DNA of 35,067 nucleotides, taken from the NCBI GenBank assembly GCA_947089145.1, contig CAMUJH010000042.1, forward strand, positions 1-35,067. The letters are read 5' to 3'. Below, piece by piece: positions 27,088-32,742 of the stretch. This DNA comes from an uncultured Hungatella sp. (GTDB lineage: Bacteria; Bacillota; Clostridia; Lachnospirales; Lachnospiraceae). The position numbers were made by a program, and so were the translations under genes. A model generated the notes under the pieces. That model was not told the origin of the DNA. It ran no database searches and worked only from the letters and a program-made list of their open reading frames with translations. Position 1 is the first letter of the stretch. Each line of letters begins with the position of its first letter.

Positions 27088-28491
27088 ATGTACAAAAAAG
27101 AGATTGAGAATTATATTGACAGCCATATAAACGAGATGGTGGAAGACATCTGCATTTTATGCCGGATTAACAGTGAGAAAACCCAGGCAATGGAGGGGAT
27201 GCCTTACGGCCAGGGAAACGCCCAGGCGCTTAAAGCAGCCCTGGAGATGGCAAAGGGGTATGGGTTTGAAACCCGCAATTATGATAATTACGTGGGTACG
27301 GCAGACTTAAATGATAAGGAGAGACAGCTGGATATCCTTGCCCATCTGGATGTGGTTCCTGCCGGCGAGGGATGGCAGGCGGTTCAGCCTTATGAGCCGG
27401 CGGTGAAGGACGGCAGGATCTACGGCCGGGGTACGGCTGATGACAAAGGGCCTGCAGTGGCAGCCCTTTATGCCATGCGGGCCGTGAAGGAGCTGGGAAT
27501 ACCTTTGACGAAAAACGTGCGGCTGATTCTGGGCACTGACGAGGAGTGCGGCAGTTCGGATATTGCTTATTACTACAGCATTGAGAAAGAGGCTCCCATG
27601 ACATTCTCACCGGATGCGGAGTTTCCTGTGATCAACGTGGAAAAAGGCAGGCTGGAGGGACATTTTACCGGCAGCTTTGAAAAAAGCGGGGGATCTGCCA
27701 GGCTGGTTTCCCTGAATGCGGGGATCAAGGTCAATGTGGTGCCGGCCAAAGCATTTGCGGTTACAGAAGGCGTGGCTTTGGATGTAATGGGGCAGGCTGC
27801 TGAGAAGGTGGGGAAGGAGACAGGCATTCGCTTTGCCTTCAGCCAGGAAGGAGGCAGCGTCAAGATCACCGCAGAGGGAGTCAATGCCCATGCGGCATAT
27901 CCGGAGGGAGGCAATAATGCCCTTACAGGCCTTCTCGCTTTGATAGCCAGGCTTCCTCTGGCAGACTGCAGCCAGACGGACTGCCTGAAAAAGCTTTTGG
28001 AGCTGATTCCCCACGGAGACCTTTACGGAGAAAGCCTGGGAGTTGCCATGGAGGATGAAATATCCGGAAAACTGACTCTGGTGTTCAGCATGCTTAACGT
28101 GACGGAGGAGGGGCTGGAGGGATATTTTGACAGCCGCTGTCCTATCTGCTCTACAGAAGACAATGTTCTTAAGGTGGTAAAAGAGAAGATGGGCAAAATC
28201 GGCCTGACGCTCCACAATGATTCTATGAAACCGCCCCATCATGTGGACGGCAGCGGCGTTTTTGTGCAGACTCTCCTGAAGGTATACCAGGAGTATACCG
28301 GGAGAAAGGGTGAATGCCTGTACACCGGCGGGGGCACCTATGTACATGAACTGAAGAACGGGGTTGCTTTCGGCGCGGCAATGCCGGGGACGGATAACAA
28401 TATGCACGGGGCCGACGAGTTTGCGGTGCTTGAGGAACTGGCGGCAAGCGCCAAAATATTTGCTCAGGTCATTGTGGATCTGTGCATGTAG
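27088..28491 (+). CDS. Sapep/PepV-type Mn2+-dependent dipeptidase (M20 family)
   Basis: This is a cytoplasmic M20 metallopeptidase of 467 residues, the PepV/Sapep length. Motifs are DILAHLDVVPAGEGW (first His ligand), YGRGTADDKGP (bridging Asp), LILGTDEECGS (catalytic and ligand Glu), GVNAHAAYPEGGNN of the lid, and GGGTYVHELKNGVAFGAAMPG with NNMHGADEF (last His ligand). It would cleave dipeptides, supplying amino acids. AAAAGGAG precedes ATG 27088 by six bases. After the stop lies a CCAATG/CATTGG hairpin (28495-28510) without a T-tract. Specificity is not determinable; the neighbouring methionine uptake operon hints at peptide/amino acid nutrition. Confidence 0.92.
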   Translation: MYKKEIENYIDSHINEMVEDICILCRINSEKTQAMEGMPYGQGNAQALKAALEMAKGYGFETRNYDNYVGTADLNDKERQLDILAHLDVVPAGEGWQAVQPYEPAVKDGRIYGRGTADDKGPAVAALYAMRAVKELGIPLTKNVRLILGTDEECGSSDIAYYYSIEKEAPMTFSPDAEFPVINVEKGRLEGHFTGSFEKSGGSARLVSLNAGIKVNVVPAKAFAVTEGVALDVMGQAAEKVGKETGIRFAFSQEGGSVKITAEGVNAHAAYPEGGNNALTGLLALIARLPLADCSQTDCLKKLLELIPHGDLYGESLGVAMEDEISGKLTLVFSMLNVTEEGLEGYFDSRCPICSTEDNVLKVVKEKMGKIGLTLHNDSMKPPHHVDGSGVFVQTLLKVYQEYTGRKGECLYTGGGTYVHELKNGVAFGAAMPGTDNNMHGADEFAVLEELAASAKIFAQVIVDLCM

Positions 28492-28557
28492 GAGCCAATG
28501 CATCCATTGGGGCAGGCTTCTGTGCTTTAAAATTTTGACAAAGTTCAGCGAAAAAAC

Positions 28558-28586
28558 TTGACAAGACCGCTGTAAGGGAGTAGAAT
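28558..28586 (+). promoter_or_regulatory. Consensus promoter of the metNIQ leader
   Basis: TTGACA (28558-28563) and TAGAAT (28581-28586) are spaced by 17 nt. The start point would be near 28593, just ahead of a 9-bp hairpin (28603-28611 with 28616-28624, tetraloop CAAT, one G-U). Confidence 0.8.
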
Positions 28587-28645
28587 ACCACACATAGAAA
28601 AAGTCTTCTGACAATTCAGAGGACAGGGAAGATGGAGGATCTGCA

Positions 28646-28756
28646 ATGTACAATTCAAAGTCCATGATGATGAATATGTGTATGGCAAACGGCATGATGG
28701 TCATGTGCCGTGTGTTCATGTGCGTACAATCGAAATGGAAGTTGAAGGTCTTGTAG
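28646..28756 (+). CDS. Methionine-rich leader peptide of metNIQ (36 aa)
   Basis: ATG 28646 follows GGAGG (28634-28638) by seven bases, a strong site, and the ORF ends at TAG 28754-28756. The peptide begins MYNSKSMMMNMCMANGMMVM and has ten methionines in 36 codons, with ATG triplets at codons 7-9 and pairs at 17-18, plus three cysteines. It lies after a consensus promoter and before an intrinsic terminator and metN, the methionine transporter ATPase. This is what a ribosome-stalling attenuator peptide for methionine should look like. A Met/Cys-rich functional small protein is the alternative, but the terminator and neighbours favour attenuation. It is too short for routine gene callers. Confidence 0.75.
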   Translation: MYNSKSMMMNMCMANGMMVMCRVFMCVQSKWKLKVL

Positions 28757-28767
28757 GGATGACAGTG

Positions 28768-28839
28768 CTTACAGGGAAAGTATCGCAGAGGAGAAATCCG
28801 GCAGGTGCTTTGTCTGGATGGTAGAGTGTTAGCCGTAAG
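28768..28839 (+). promoter_or_regulatory. Possible antiterminator pairing in the metNIQ leader
   Basis: GCTTACAGG (28767-28775) can pair with CCGTAAGT (28833-28840) with one bulged A, using the 5' arm of the terminator. If it forms while a ribosome stalls on the Met codons, the terminator could not fold. This is drawn by eye and weak on its own. Confidence 0.3.
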
Positions 28840-28861
28840 TCTATAGGACTTACGGCTTTTT
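28831..28861 (+). terminator. Attenuator terminator between the leader peptide and metN
   Basis: A perfect 11-bp stem AGCCGTAAGTC (28831-28841) / GACTTACGGCT (28847-28857), with a 5-nt loop, is followed by TTTTT. It lies 74 bases after the leader stop and 55 bases before metN. Confidence 0.9.
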
Positions 28862-28916
28862 GTGGTTCTGACAGGGAGAGCACTGCTGAAAAAAGGAATG
28901 GAGGACGTGATACGTT

Positions 28917-29930
28917 ATGGAACAGCCGATTATCCAGATCAGTCATCTGGGAAAAGAGTTTCAGACAACAGAAGGAAAGGTCCGGGCCCTGGGTGACATT
29001 AATCTGGAAATCTGTCAGGGCGAAATCTTTGGCATCATAGGGTTAAGCGGGGCAGGAAAAAGCACCCTGGTCCGGTGCATTAATTTTTTGGAGGTCCCTA
29101 CAGAAGGGGAGGTGCTGTTTGAGGGAAGGAGTCTTGGGAAAATGAGTCCCCAGGAGCTGCGCAGCACAAGGCAGTCCATGGGCATGATCTTTCAGCAGTT
29201 TAACCTGCTGGCCCAGAGAAGCGTACTGCGCAACGTGTGTTTTCCCCTGGAGCTGGTAAAAACCCCCAAGGCGGAAAGCAGGGCAAGGGCTATGGAGCTT
29301 TTAAAGACCGTGGGGCTGGAGGATAAGGCGGCTGCCTATCCGGCCCAGCTGTCCGGAGGCCAGAAGCAGAGAGTAGCCATTGCCAGGGCCCTGGCCACCA
29401 ACCCAAAGGTGATTCTGTGCGACGAGGCTACCAGCGCCCTGGACCCTAACACCACCAAGTCGATTCTCGGGCTGTTAAAGGAGATAAACAGAAATCTGGG
29501 AGTGACAGTGATTGTGATCACTCACGAGATGGCAGTAATCGAAGCTATCTGCGACAGGGTGGCCATTATAGATCAGAGCCACATTGCCGAGGTGGGAAAG
29601 GTTTCGGAGATTTTCTCAGAGCCTAAGTCAAAGATCGGGCGCCAGCTGATTCTGGGCGATGCAGCCCGCCAGGTGAAGTTCGGCAATTCCAGGCAGATCC
29701 GGATCATTTTTGACGGGAGGGAATCTACAGAGCCGGTTATCTCCAACATGGTTCTGGCCTGTAAGACGGCGGTAAACATTATGTATGCCCAGACCAGGGA
29801 TGTGGGAGGAATTGCCATGGGGCAGATGATCGTCCAGCTTCCGGATGACGAGGCGGAGGCTAACAGGGCCCTTCACTATTTAGAGACGGTTAAGATTCCA
29901 TATGAGGAGGTAAGCGAACATGACATTTGA
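28917..29930 (+). CDS. metN: Methionine ABC transporter ATP-binding protein
   Basis: MetN powers uptake of D/L-methionine through MetI. The 337-residue protein has Walker [10 protein letters not shown] (residues 42-50), Q-loop MIFQQFNLL, signature LSGGQKQR, Walker [14 protein letters not shown], the switch His in VITHEM, and a C-terminal NIL domain (about 255-337), which in E. coli MetN binds methionine and inhibits transport. GGAGG at 28900-28904 lies 12 bases upstream. The gene overlaps metI by 11 bases. It follows a leader with a methionine-rich peptide and a terminator, so its transcription is likely to be attenuated. Confidence 0.96.
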
Positions 29931-30585
29931 CGCCGCTACGATTCAGATGCTGAAGACAGGGATATGGGAGACTTTTTACATGGTATTTCTGTCCTCTCTG
30001 TTTGCCTATGTTATTGGGCTTCCCCTGGGGATTGTCCTGGTAACTACGGATAACGACGGCATTCATCCCATGCCGGTTTTGCAGAAGGTGCTCGGCACGG
30101 TGATCAACCTGCTGCGCTCGGTGCCTTTTCTGATTCTTTTGTTCATTGTGCTGCCGTTGTCCAAGATGGTTATCGGGACCCGCATCGGCTCTCCGGCCAT
30201 GGTGATCCCGCTGACCATTGCGGCAGGTCCCTACGTGGCCAGGGTGGTGGAGTCCTCCCTTCGGGAGATTGATGGAGGGGTGATTGAGGCGGCAAAGTCC
30301 ATGGGGGCTTCTGACTGGCAGATTATATGGAAAGTGCTGCTGCCGGAATGCAGGCCTTCCCTTCTGGTAGGCGGGGCGCTGGCTGTCACTACCATTTTAA
30401 GCTATTCTGCCATGGCCGGGTTCGTAGGCGGCGGAGGCGTGGGAGCCATTGCCATCAATTACGGATATTACCGGTACGAGGCAGGGCTTATGTGGGTTTC
30501 CGTGGTGCTCCTGGTGGTGATGGTCCAGATTATTCAGGAAGCGGGAATGAGGATGTCCAGAAAAGGAGATAAAAGGATTCGGTAA
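29920..30585 (+). CDS. metI: Methionine ABC transporter permease
   Basis: The 221-residue inner-membrane subunit has five to six hydrophobic segments and the EAA coupling loop VIEAAKSMGASDWQIIWKVLLPE, which contacts MetN. It is typical of MetI in length and in its N-terminal TFYMVFLSSLFAYVIGLPLG. ATG 29920 overlaps the end of metN by 11 bases (ribosome binding site GAGGAGGTAAG at 29905-29913), giving translational coupling. metQ follows after 228 bases. Confidence 0.95.
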   Translation: MTFDAATIQMLKTGIWETFYMVFLSSLFAYVIGLPLGIVLVTTDNDGIHPMPVLQKVLGTVINLLRSVPFLILLFIVLPLSKMVIGTRIGSPAMVIPLTIAAGPYVARVVESSLREIDGGVIEAAKSMGASDWQIIWKVLLPECRPSLLVGGALAVTTILSYSAMAGFVGGGGVGAIAINYGYYRYEAGLMWVSVVLLVVMVQIIQEAGMRMSRKGDKRIR

Positions 30586-30813
30586 AAATGGCTTTGGGAG
30601 ACAAAAAAGGAAGACGCAGATGCAAAGCCAGGACATAGGCAAAAACCAGGCTGCCTGGAAATCAGCGGATTATAGAGGCTTTCATGCCTTTATAATAAAG
30701 CGCAGGCGCGGCAGCGGCCTTGTTATCAGAGGCGGTTGAAGAAAGCGCGCCAAAGCGCACAACACCCATAGGCCTTACGGACTATGGAAAATCAAAAAAG
30801 AGGAGAGATGGTT
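30586..30813. other. metI-metQ spacer
   Basis: The spacer holds short hairpins (TGGCTTTG/CAAAGCCA, 30589-30596 with 30623-30630; CCAGG/CCTGG, 30646-30650 with 30654-30658) and a lone TATAAT at 30691-30696 without a matching -35 box. No terminator or gene is evident. It could partly uncouple metQ expression from metNI, as solute-binding proteins are often made in excess. Confidence 0.4.
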
Positions 30814-31719
30814 ATGAGAAAAACAATATGTGCAATTGCAGCCGCAGCGCTGCTGGCCGGAAGCGTGGCAGGATGTTCAGGCAACAATGAGGCAAAGACC
30901 ACACAAGCAGAGACAACTGCGGCAGGCCAGGAGGAGACAACCAAGGCAGCCGGCGGTGAGCAGGCCGAAACAGAGGCTGCTTCCGGAGAACTGAAGAAGA
31001 TTGTTATCGGCGCAAGCCCGGCGCCTCATGCGGAGATTTTAAGAGCAGCCGCAGACGTTTTGGCGCAGAAGGGGTATGAGCTGGATATTAAGGAATATGT
31101 GGATTACATCCAGCCTAACCTGGCCCTGGAGTCAGGAGACTTAGATGCAAACTATTTCCAGCATCTTCCTTATCTGGAGTCCTTTAACGAGGAAAACGGA
31201 ACCAAGCTGGTATCTGCGGCATCCATACACTATGAACCCTTTGGCATTTATGCAGGGAAGACGAAATCCCTGGAAGAGCTGGGCGACGGTGCGACGGTGG
31301 CAGTTCCCAATGATACCAGCAATGAGGCCAGGGCTCTTCTGCTTCTGGAGGCCCAGGGACTGATCAAGCTGAAAGACGGCGCAGGGCTGACAGCCACGAA
31401 GAATGACATTGTTGAGAATCCTAAGAATATTAAGCTGTACGAGGTGGAGGCAGCTCAGATTCCAAGATCCATCGAGGATGTGGATGTGGCGGTTATCAAC
31501 GGAAACTATGCCATAGATGCAGGATTTAAGGTGTCTGACGCTTTGGCCGTAGAGGATTCCCAGTCCGTTGCCGCCACGACCTACGGCAATGTAATCGCAG
31601 TGCAGGAAGGCAAAGAAAACGACGAGGGCATTCAGGCGCTGATTGAGGCTTTGAAGAGTGACGAGGTTAAGGCTTTCATTGAGAGCACGTATGAGGGCGC
31701 AGTGGTTGCGCTGGATTGA
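30814..31719 (+). CDS. metQ: Methionine-binding lipoprotein (NlpA family)
   Basis: MetQ is the extracytoplasmic substrate-binding subunit of MetNIQ. The 301-residue precursor has a signal peptide with lipobox GSVAGC, then a Thr/Glu/Ala-rich spacer (about residues 25-60) and the NlpA fold: IVIGASPAPHAEIL, DYIQPNLALESGDLDANYFQHLPYLE, SIHYEPFGIYAGKT, VAVPNDTSNEARALLLLE and DVAVINGNYAIDAGF. The frame opens at 30784, but AGGAG at 30801-30805 supports ATG 30814, eight bases on; ATG 30808 is too close. A terminator follows at 31758-31796. The class is certain. Methionine specificity follows from the operon with NIL-bearing metN. Confidence 0.94.
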   Translation: MRKTICAIAAAALLAGSVAGCSGNNEAKTTQAETTAAGQEETTKAAGGEQAETEAASGELKKIVIGASPAPHAEILRAAADVLAQKGYELDIKEYVDYIQPNLALESGDLDANYFQHLPYLESFNEENGTKLVSAASIHYEPFGIYAGKTKSLEELGDGATVAVPNDTSNEARALLLLEAQGLIKLKDGAGLTATKNDIVENPKNIKLYEVEAAQIPRSIEDVDVAVINGNYAIDAGFKVSDALAVEDSQSVAATTYGNVIAVQEGKENDEGIQALIEALKSDEVKAFIESTYEGAVVALD

Positions 31720-31757
31720 TAACAGACAGCAGGCAATGGAATAGGAAATTATAGGGC

Positions 31758-31796
31758 AAAGGGAATCTTTGGTTTACAGAAGATTCCCTTTGTTGT
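31758..31796 (+). terminator. Terminator of metNIQ
   Basis: A perfect 12-bp stem AAAGGGAATCTT (31758-31769) / AAGATTCCCTTT (31780-31791) with a 10-nt loop is followed by GTTGT, a weak U-tract. Confidence 0.75.
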
Positions 31797-31902
31797 ATGA
31801 TGGAGAAAAGGGAATGGCTTTGCACGGCCGCAGGGAGGACGGACAGGCCATTTCTGCGGCTTTGGGGAACCGGAAAGAGGGGCACAAGAGGGAGAGGAAC
31901 AT

Positions 31903-32742
31903 ATGGATGAACGATTAAAAGATAATCAGGCTGCGGAGACAGGCTGTCAGGGGATTCTGGATGAAGGCGGCAGAACCTGGGAGGACAGGCTGTCAGGCGG
32001 GAGGACAGAGCAGTACCAAACCCAGACGCCAAACGCAGCCCAGGGCTTAAATTCAGACCGGGGGACAAGCCTGGCCCAGGGAGGGAATCCGGTTCAGGGA
32101 CAGAATGCAGGCTGGGTACAAAGTGCAGGCCAGGGGGCGAATGCAGGCTGGGGGCAGAATGCAGGCCAGGGGCCGAATGCAGGACGGGGACAGAGTGCAG
32201 ATCAGGGTCAAAATGCAGGACGGGGTCAAAATGCAGATCAGAGTCCAAATGTAGCCTGGGTACAGAGTGCAGGCCAGGGACAAAATGCAGGCTGGGGGCC
32301 GAACGCAGGTCAAGGGCCGAATACAGCCTGGGGACAGAACACAGGCCAGGGACAAAATACAGCCTGGGGGCAGAATGCAGGCTGGGAGCAGAATGCAGGT
32401 GAAGGGCCGAATACAGCCTGGGGACAGAGTGCAGGCCAGGGACAGTATCCGGGAAGGTTTCAAGGCGGGGAACCAAATTGGTATCCGGCTATGGAGAACA
32501 GCGGAATGGTTCAGCCGGAACAGGAAAACCATATGGCGTTGGCATCCATGATAATGGGCATTCTGTCCATAATCTCTGCCTGCTGTTTTTCGGCATCCTT
32601 TATTCTGGGAGGATTGGCAGTGATGTTTGCAGCTCTTTCCAGGGTGGAGGAGAAGATGTCCAGAAAGGGAAAAACAGGGCTGATTACAGGCATTATAGGA
32701 ATTGCGGCAGGACTTGTTTCTGTGGGCATATGGAGTCTTTAA
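31903..32742 (+). CDS. Membrane protein with Gly/Gln/Asn-rich hexapeptide repeats and DUF4190-like C-terminus
   Basis: The 279-residue protein has three parts. Residues 1-65 are polar. Residues 66-185 are twenty tandem hexapeptides near G-Q-N-A-G-(W/Q/R), with W recurring at the sixth place. Residues 211-279 carry two hydrophobic helices (211-245 and 258-279), with the MALASMIMGILSI start and GKTGLITGIIGIAAG end of DUF4190-type domains. There is no signal peptide; the repeat arm may be cytoplasmic, with a hairpin of two helices anchoring it. AGGGAGAGG at 31889-31897 fixes ATG 31903. The next gene, a DUF975-like membrane protein, begins 21 bases on. Function unknown. Confidence 0.8.
   Translation: MDERLKDNQAAETGCQGILDEGGRTWEDRLSGGRTEQYQTQTPNAAQGLNSDRGTSLAQGGNPVQGQNAGWVQSAGQGANAGWGQNAGQGPNAGRGQSADQGQNAGRGQNADQSPNVAWVQSAGQGQNAGWGPNAGQGPNTAWGQNTGQGQNTAWGQNAGWEQNAGEGPNTAWGQSAGQGQYPGRFQGGEPNWYPAMENSGMVQPEQENHMALASMIMGILSIISACCFSASFILGGLAVMFAALSRVEEKMSRKGKTGLITGIIGIAAGLVSVGIWSL
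32098..32457 (+). repeat. Coding minisatellite, twenty 18-bp units
   Basis: The hexapeptide array is coded by 18-bp units close to GGCCAGGGGCCGAATGCA and GGCTGGGGGCAGAATGCA, alternating and often grouped as 36-bp pairs. Because the unit is a multiple of three and lacks stops, long open frames appear on the other strand and in a second frame here; these are by-products. Confidence 0.9.

Follow-up and report, generated by a model that had tools for sequence, protein, structure and literature searches.

The leader that precedes metNIQ in the window (the whole stretch of 35,067 nucleotides analysed here) is very probably a ribosome-mediated transcription attenuator of the trp/his type, which would read charged elongator Met-tRNA and thereby control the operon. 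Comparison with related loci supports the anatomy of the leader, its enrichment in Met codons, its tie to metN, two rival RNA pairings and the position of one shared pairing strand, region 3, at the stop codon; the stalling of the ribosome, its cause (uncharged elongator tRNA-Met) and its effect on transcription are what we infer from this arrangement. Leader-peptide attenuators are textbook biology, but the only one that we found proposed for methionine is in Streptomyces and has thin evidence behind it. As methionine starts every protein, a Met sensor that relies on the ribosome has to initiate translation when the very residue that it senses is running short. The comparison suggests that the speed of the ribosome through the leader ORF signals whether methionine is scarce.

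A methionine-rich ORF and a terminator precede metNIQ

The features of the locus, all on the forward strand, are as follows.

28558..28586, +, sigma-70-type promoter: TTGACA at 28558-28563, 17-nt spacer, TAGAAT at 28581-28586
28634..28638, +, Shine-Dalgarno GGAGG of the leader ORF, seven bases before the ATG at 28646
28646..28756, +, Met-rich leader peptide ORF, 36 codons
28649..28665, +, region 1, codons 2-7, able to form 14 pairs with region 3
28689..28711, +, hairpin within the ORF, ACGGCAUGA/UCAUGUGCCGU, 94.4% of cells paired
28735..28756, +, region 3, at the stop codon, candidate partner of region 1 and, via CUUGUAG, of the terminator loop
28750..28772, +, candidate antiterminator 5' strand: CUUGUAG at 28750-28756 and GCUUAC at 28767-28772, 13 pairs
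28831..28861, +, intrinsic terminator, perfect hairpin AGCCGTAAGTC-TATAG-GACTTACGGCT with a T-run
28835-28847, +, candidate antiterminator 3' strand, the 5' arm and loop of the terminator
28917..29930, +, metN, ABC transporter ATPase; top NCBIfam match TIGR02314 MetN, 348 bits, below the cut-off of 499.7
29920..30585, +, metI, permease; top NCBIfam match NF008049 MetI, 207.8 bits, short of the cut-off of 212
30784..31719, +, metQ, substrate-binding lipoprotein; top NCBIfam match NF008285 MetQ, 190 bits, below the cut-off of 374

The promoter, the Shine-Dalgarno sequence, the 36-codon ORF with ten Met codons, the perfect hairpin with its T-run and metN are all as the first-pass annotation had described them. 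The ORF is short and, by its sequence, translatable, with the Shine-Dalgarno sequence directly upstream of it, and a gene for a PepV-type dipeptidase sits upstream of the leader. The encoded peptide, MYNSKSMMMNMCMANGMMVMCRVFMCVQSKWKLKVL, holds ten Met including the start, with a Met triplet at codons 7-9. Among the SD-preceded ORFs of 15-60 codons, of which the window has 206 when nested starts are counted separately, this one ranks first with nine internal Met codons, ahead of a runner-up with six. Within 28000-32500 the promoter ranks first among five promoter-like sites (2.8 expected from shuffles) and the terminator first among eight terminator-like sites (3.9 expected). The segment 28593-28865, terminator included, folds far better than its shuffles (z -7.2, 0/200). 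In the genus, TTGACA and TAGAATAC occur at the same position in all nine loci that reach far enough upstream, GGAGGA is invariant across the 10-row alignment, and an intrinsic terminator stands between ORF and operon as it does in the window. The arrangement of promoter, Shine-Dalgarno sequence, Met-rich ORF and terminator before metN-metI-metQ is real and far beyond chance. Further downstream, the ORF after metQ (31903-32742) contains many imperfect GQNAG-like repeats followed by a hydrophobic end.

An Rfam scan of the window gave no match at the gathering score, and so no T-box (RF00230) and no SAM riboswitch at the locus, in agreement with the first-pass annotation; over 28540-28920 and up to E 10 the only match was RF02592, at 21.6 bits against a cut-off of 47. 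The same genome carries ten T-box matches, five of them above the cut-off, and a SAM riboswitch ahead of what reads as a metK ORF (named by eye). The SAM-I riboswitch resembles the leader in controlling methionine-related genes, but it binds SAM, and none was found before the metN of the window.

Met-rich leaders recur before metN while their peptides drift

In 120 regions upstream of metN (40 from family genomes and 80 from a second set, with some genomes in both), an SD-preceded ORF with at least five internal Met codons was present in 53. The same rule selected nothing in 600 dinucleotide shuffles, nor in 1244 other 700-nt windows from the loci of the 80-region set. The 67 regions below the five-Met mark include L045, L047 and L052, which are Met-rich by eye but fail the rule, and L120 and L123, which have four internal Met. 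In records titled Agathobaculum (L120, L121, L123 and L135), metN is preceded by a Met/Cys leader of a type of its own, which is 22 codons long, keeps a MCMMCGFARFSA core and comes with a terminator.

Among 64 distinct leader peptides, which were picked for Met, this residue makes up 25.4% against 2.9% in the long ORFs of the window. Met codons stay frequent while the peptide drifts, as in MYNSKSMMMNMCMANG..., MNQLKAMQMNMYMMNG..., MTNTYTLQMNMMSLMCG..., MFAAKAMNNSMMMDMMMCG..., MRTSIIIMCNMVIMGG... and MPSTRMNMCMMCGFARFSA... outside the genus, and the terminator and a rival antiterminator recur in many genera of the family. The comparison of metN-upstream regions that had been proposed as a check therefore came out with Met codons and hairpin conserved, the opposite of the outcome named there as refuting, and the original reading, a translation-coupled Met attenuator, is supported. 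A small 5' UTR hairpin of the UUCCUA...UAGGAA kind recurs between promoter and leader ORF in L015, L016 and L034.

The tie to metN also appears in searches of whole genomes. A DNA homologue of the leader is carried by 10 of 26 genus genomes, always before metN. A profile of 33 peptides matched 23 of 397 family genomes at E<=0.01, and at 21 of these places, each with E<1e-4, metN follows directly; the other two (G372, E 4.5e-4; G047, E 5.5e-3) have no listed metN beside them. Because the first step of these whole-genome peptide searches is a coarse one, some leaders may escape them, and a narrower profile missed most of those that the 33-peptide profile later caught. Fourteen of the 20 places from that narrower search (E 0.006 to 0.09) were judged to be chance matches, and tblastn found in these 14 loci at most a weak MetN (L024, 22% identity; L026, 35%). 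Class-wide, three of 391 genomes matched at E<=0.02: the genome of the window, G345, where a true leader lies before metN, and G592 (E 0.006), whose locus contains no metN by match. Leaders occur in records titled Hungatella, Enterocloster and Lacrimispora; they are short and easy to test, and these relatives are culturable.

Two rival pairings share the stop-codon region

In the proposed mechanism, region 3 has two possible partners: region 1, lying on the early Met codons or immediately ahead of them, and the terminator, through its 5' arm and loop. When methionine is plentiful, the ribosome would reach the stop codon and cover region 3, so that the terminator would form and metNIQ would be off. 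When it is scarce, the ribosome would stall on the early Met cluster and cover region 1, which would leave region 3 free to pair with the terminator 5' arm; this antiterminator would allow RNA polymerase to continue into metNIQ. Support for mutually exclusive pairings of this kind is strong in many relatives and modest in the window.

Pairing was analysed in 57 leaders, eight of them genus rows, taken from 71 picked ORFs. Left out were L005, L047, L061, L065, L067, L120, L121, L123, L125, L135 and L148, together with L105, whose hairpin string was not found, and the duplicates L085 and L091 (L006 had been lost earlier, at ORF picking); the results hence concern leaders other than the Agathobaculum type and L125. 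Terminator hairpins were assigned for all 57, with 12 picked by hand. A search for partners of the terminator 5' arm and loop, run between ORF codon 16 and the terminator, placed the best one near the leader stop codon in many leaders. In the main class, the motif UGUAUGGAUUGUG pairs with CGCAAGUCUGUGCA, and this would account for the conservation of the terminator loop. The antiterminator duplex had a mean z of -1.78 against shuffles, a value to which the leaders, being related, do not contribute independently; 25 of the 57 were at <=10/200 and 16 at <=2/200, with 32 short of the 10/200 mark. The antiterminator of the window itself is not significant by energy alone (22/200 shuffles as good). 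The duplex found there includes the pairing of 28767-28775 with 28833-28840 that had been guessed at first, which accounts for about half of it; the half formed by 28750-28756 with 28841-28847 had been missed.

The motif UGUAUGGA was compared with the terminator octamer in 33 of the 46 motif-bearing leaders (the eight genus rows, L050, L051, L099, L103 and L107 were excluded, and the motif of L038 was placed by hand). Here 95.0% of cells are paired, against 5-57% in slid versions and 93.0% when whole octamers are swapped, with 1/1000 swaps as high; minus two odd rows, 21/1000 column shuffles and 23/1000 swaps are as high. One cell changed on both sides, the other pairing changes being mostly one-sided and of the G-U kind. 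A terminator-swap energy test was not clear-cut: many leaders pair better with a foreign terminator, because the terminators are alike.

The stop-codon motif can also pair with the early Met codons, CCAUGCAGAUGAA with UUCAUUUGUAUGG and, in the genus, UACAAUUCAAAGUCCAU with AUGGAAGUUGAAGGUCUUGUA. Against shuffles, this pairing of region 1 with region 3 reached <=10/200 in 26 of 57 leaders and <=2/200 in 11. In the main class (31 loci, 29 distinct) 84.1% of cells are paired against 82.8% on row swap (57/1000 as high). The Herbinix-type (MRTS) leaders have the region 1-3 pairing with little antiterminator signal, and the MFAA class gave neither signal.

Within the 10-row genus alignment, the terminator has 99.2% of cells paired, with compensatory changes in three pairs and 4/500 column shuffles as good. 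The region 1-3 pairing has 97.9% of cells paired, with one compensatory change (A-U to C-G), and 48/500 column shuffles pair as well. The 13 pairs of the antiterminator are kept in 97.7% of cells against 27-47% in slid versions, without a single two-sided change, and column shuffles are as good in 435/500 cases. Slid versions of the three pairings taken together are 24-50% paired. The hairpin within the ORF changes from C-G to G-C in two of the ten rows (slid versions 20-67%; 10/500 column shuffles as good). Strong two-sided covariation of the antiterminator was expected and was not found, either in the 33-leader set or in the genus alignment. The support for pairing is complementarity kept under mostly one-sided change.

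A ribosome stalled on early Met codons may favour the antiterminator

We masked the ribosome footprint, simulated the folding of RNA truncated directly behind the terminator loop, and counted the expected antiterminator pairs. The mean was 7.7 when the A site held one of the Met codons among codons 5-13, compared with 4.4 without a ribosome and 2.8 with the ribosome at the stop codon. In 34 of 57 leaders the stalled position gave at least two more pairs than the stop position, the reverse being seen in two, and in 28 of 57 it exceeded ribosome-free RNA by two pairs. L088 behaves as a textbook switch, with 0.0 pairs without a ribosome, 17.1 on Met codons and 0.2 at the stop. The profile of the window is not clean (7.6 without a ribosome, 2.5 stalled and 0.3 at the stop), so its mechanism rests mainly on homology and on the pairs kept in the genus.

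Sister groups within the genus carry a leader or a T-box

The genus has 24 genomes with a metN orthologue: the leader precedes it in 10 and a T-box in 12, one genome has neither and one contig is cut short; leader and T-box were together in none. The T-boxes take the place of the leader before metN in L044 and in 11 of the 13 regions of the L189-L201 set (L189-L191, L193, L194 and L196-L201). In L192, which has neither element, metN starts 17 bases behind the upstream gene, and L195 is the shortened contig. The Met-rich ORF is absent from the 14 other genus regions, which have at most three internal Met (L195 being too short to judge), and Rfam matched none of 20 further leader loci, nine from the genus and 11 from other genera. 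An AUG follows GAAC or GAAG in stem I of all 14 T-boxes inspected (the 12 of the genus, L066 and L087), although L087 and L196 seem to be one contig, so these are perhaps not all distinct; we take this AUG to be the specifier. The genus relatives without a leader mostly have a T-box with this presumed specifier, which points to Met-tRNA as the signal. The Met T-box is like the leader in its place before metN within the same genus and in the AUG at its presumed specifier, but it binds tRNA directly and needs no ORF.

Beyond the leader-bearing loci, T-boxes were found in two of the 40 family-set regions (L044 and L066). Twenty leader-negative loci of the 80-region set include a T-box in L087 and a SAM riboswitch before metN in L129, and a search for known elements found none in the other 18. 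In L049 (461-632), a Clostridiales-1 RNA (RF01699, 121.6 bits) lies between the Met leader and metN.

In a MetN tree, the genus has two sister clades, one leader-bearing (SH-aLRT 99) and one with T-boxes (80-81), which are nested among leader-bearing rows of other genera. The tree is of a quick kind, with several long branches and no inferred root, and we use it only for the nesting of the T-box clade. One exchange, perhaps from leader to T-box, would be the simplest reading of this pattern. The genus is a natural experiment in which one gene, metN, has two unlike sensors in sister groups. We consider it reasonably likely that Clostridia hold a broad family of Met(/Cys) attenuators dedicated to metN, which would have arisen or been remade in several unlike classes, would read the elongator Met-tRNA pool despite their own fMet-tRNA start, and would have been exchanged for a Met T-box within one genus.

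What the leader is likely to sense

Joint sensing of the sulphur amino acids, through Cys-tRNA as well as Met-tRNA, would be in line with the enrichment of Cys in the 64 peptides (9.9% against 1.6% in window ORFs, the picking score having given Cys a small weight) and with the AUG-UGC codon pairs that recur in the main classes. However, codons 2-13 contain 225 of the 538 Met codons and no more than 29 of the 210 Cys codons, and it is at these early positions that a stalled ribosome favours the antiterminator in several leaders (L034, L040, L041 and L088). The T-box that acts as the other sensor within the genus, moreover, has AUG at its presumed specifier. We therefore regard joint sensing as unlikely.

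Tryptophan-dependent arrest by the TnaC nascent chain is the model for another reading, in which free Met or SAM in the exit tunnel would stall the ribosome via the peptide. The main-class core around M.MNM...MC[RGC]M is indeed kept beyond its Met codons, but RNA pairing explains part of this kept sequence, and unlike classes have little in common except Met and Cys. The C-terminus, where arrest would be expected, varies in frame and length within one genus, ending in SGV*, KVL* or V* or reading on to 49 codons, and no conserved C-terminal arrest sequence was found. Such arrest is improbable.

A riboswitch for Met or SAM with an incidental ORF is more doubtful again. In its favour, the RNA folds strongly (z -7.2) and some segments beyond the stop codon are conserved, but these segments are able to pair with the ORF and the terminator, no Rfam family matched, and even where the RNA sequence has given way to another, the ORF with its Shine-Dalgarno sequence and Met codons is still there. 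Least probable of all is a functional Met/Cys-rich micro-protein, for instance a metal-binding one, that merely shares the promoter: a sub-threshold zinc-ribbon match in one of eight peptides (PF10601, 17.9 bits against a cut-off of 23.8) stands against seven peptides with no Pfam match, no NCBIfam match for any of the eight, a terminator between ORF and metN, 21 of 23 whole-genome matches directly before metN, and a varying length and C-terminus.

Relation to known leaders and riboregulators

The trpL, hisL, leuL, thrL and ilvL leader peptides belong to known amino acid attenuators. The Met leader has their layout, in which a promoter, a Shine-Dalgarno sequence, a short ORF rich in one residue, a rival antiterminator and an intrinsic terminator precede the cognate operon. 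It differs from them in its residue, methionine, in its clostridial host and in serving an importer operon; furthermore, its region 1 would pair directly with region 3 at the stop codon.

The first-pass annotation knew of no described Met leader-peptide attenuator. This holds for Firmicutes, where our search of openly licensed PubMed Central papers, seen in part, returned none, but not in general, as a Met leader before metNIQ has been proposed once before to the extent that these sources reach, on thin evidence, in Streptomyces lividans. That leader, metL, is a short Met-containing ORF, MSTTSDRTPATEATTTPGARCMCRRMCAF, placed before the same operon (PMC8079986). According to the available part of the paper, it has two internal Met, is leaderless, comes from one genome and, in its authors' words, lacks a typical Rho-independent terminator, and no comparative test appears there (PMC8079986). 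For the Actinobacteria that it studied, another paper reports no conserved RNA element before methionine operons (PMC1262725).

The met T-box of Staphylococcus aureus is reported to prefer initiator tRNA (PMC3771891). A leader with internal AUG codons would read the elongator tRNA. Histidine leader peptides have been described in bacilli, within Firmicutes, in the excerpted text of a further study (PMC2965389). These are likewise Firmicute leader-peptide attenuators that stand where relatives have a T-box, and they differ from the Met leader in sensing histidine, in the genes served (hisS/hisZ) and in their bacillar hosts (PMC2965389).
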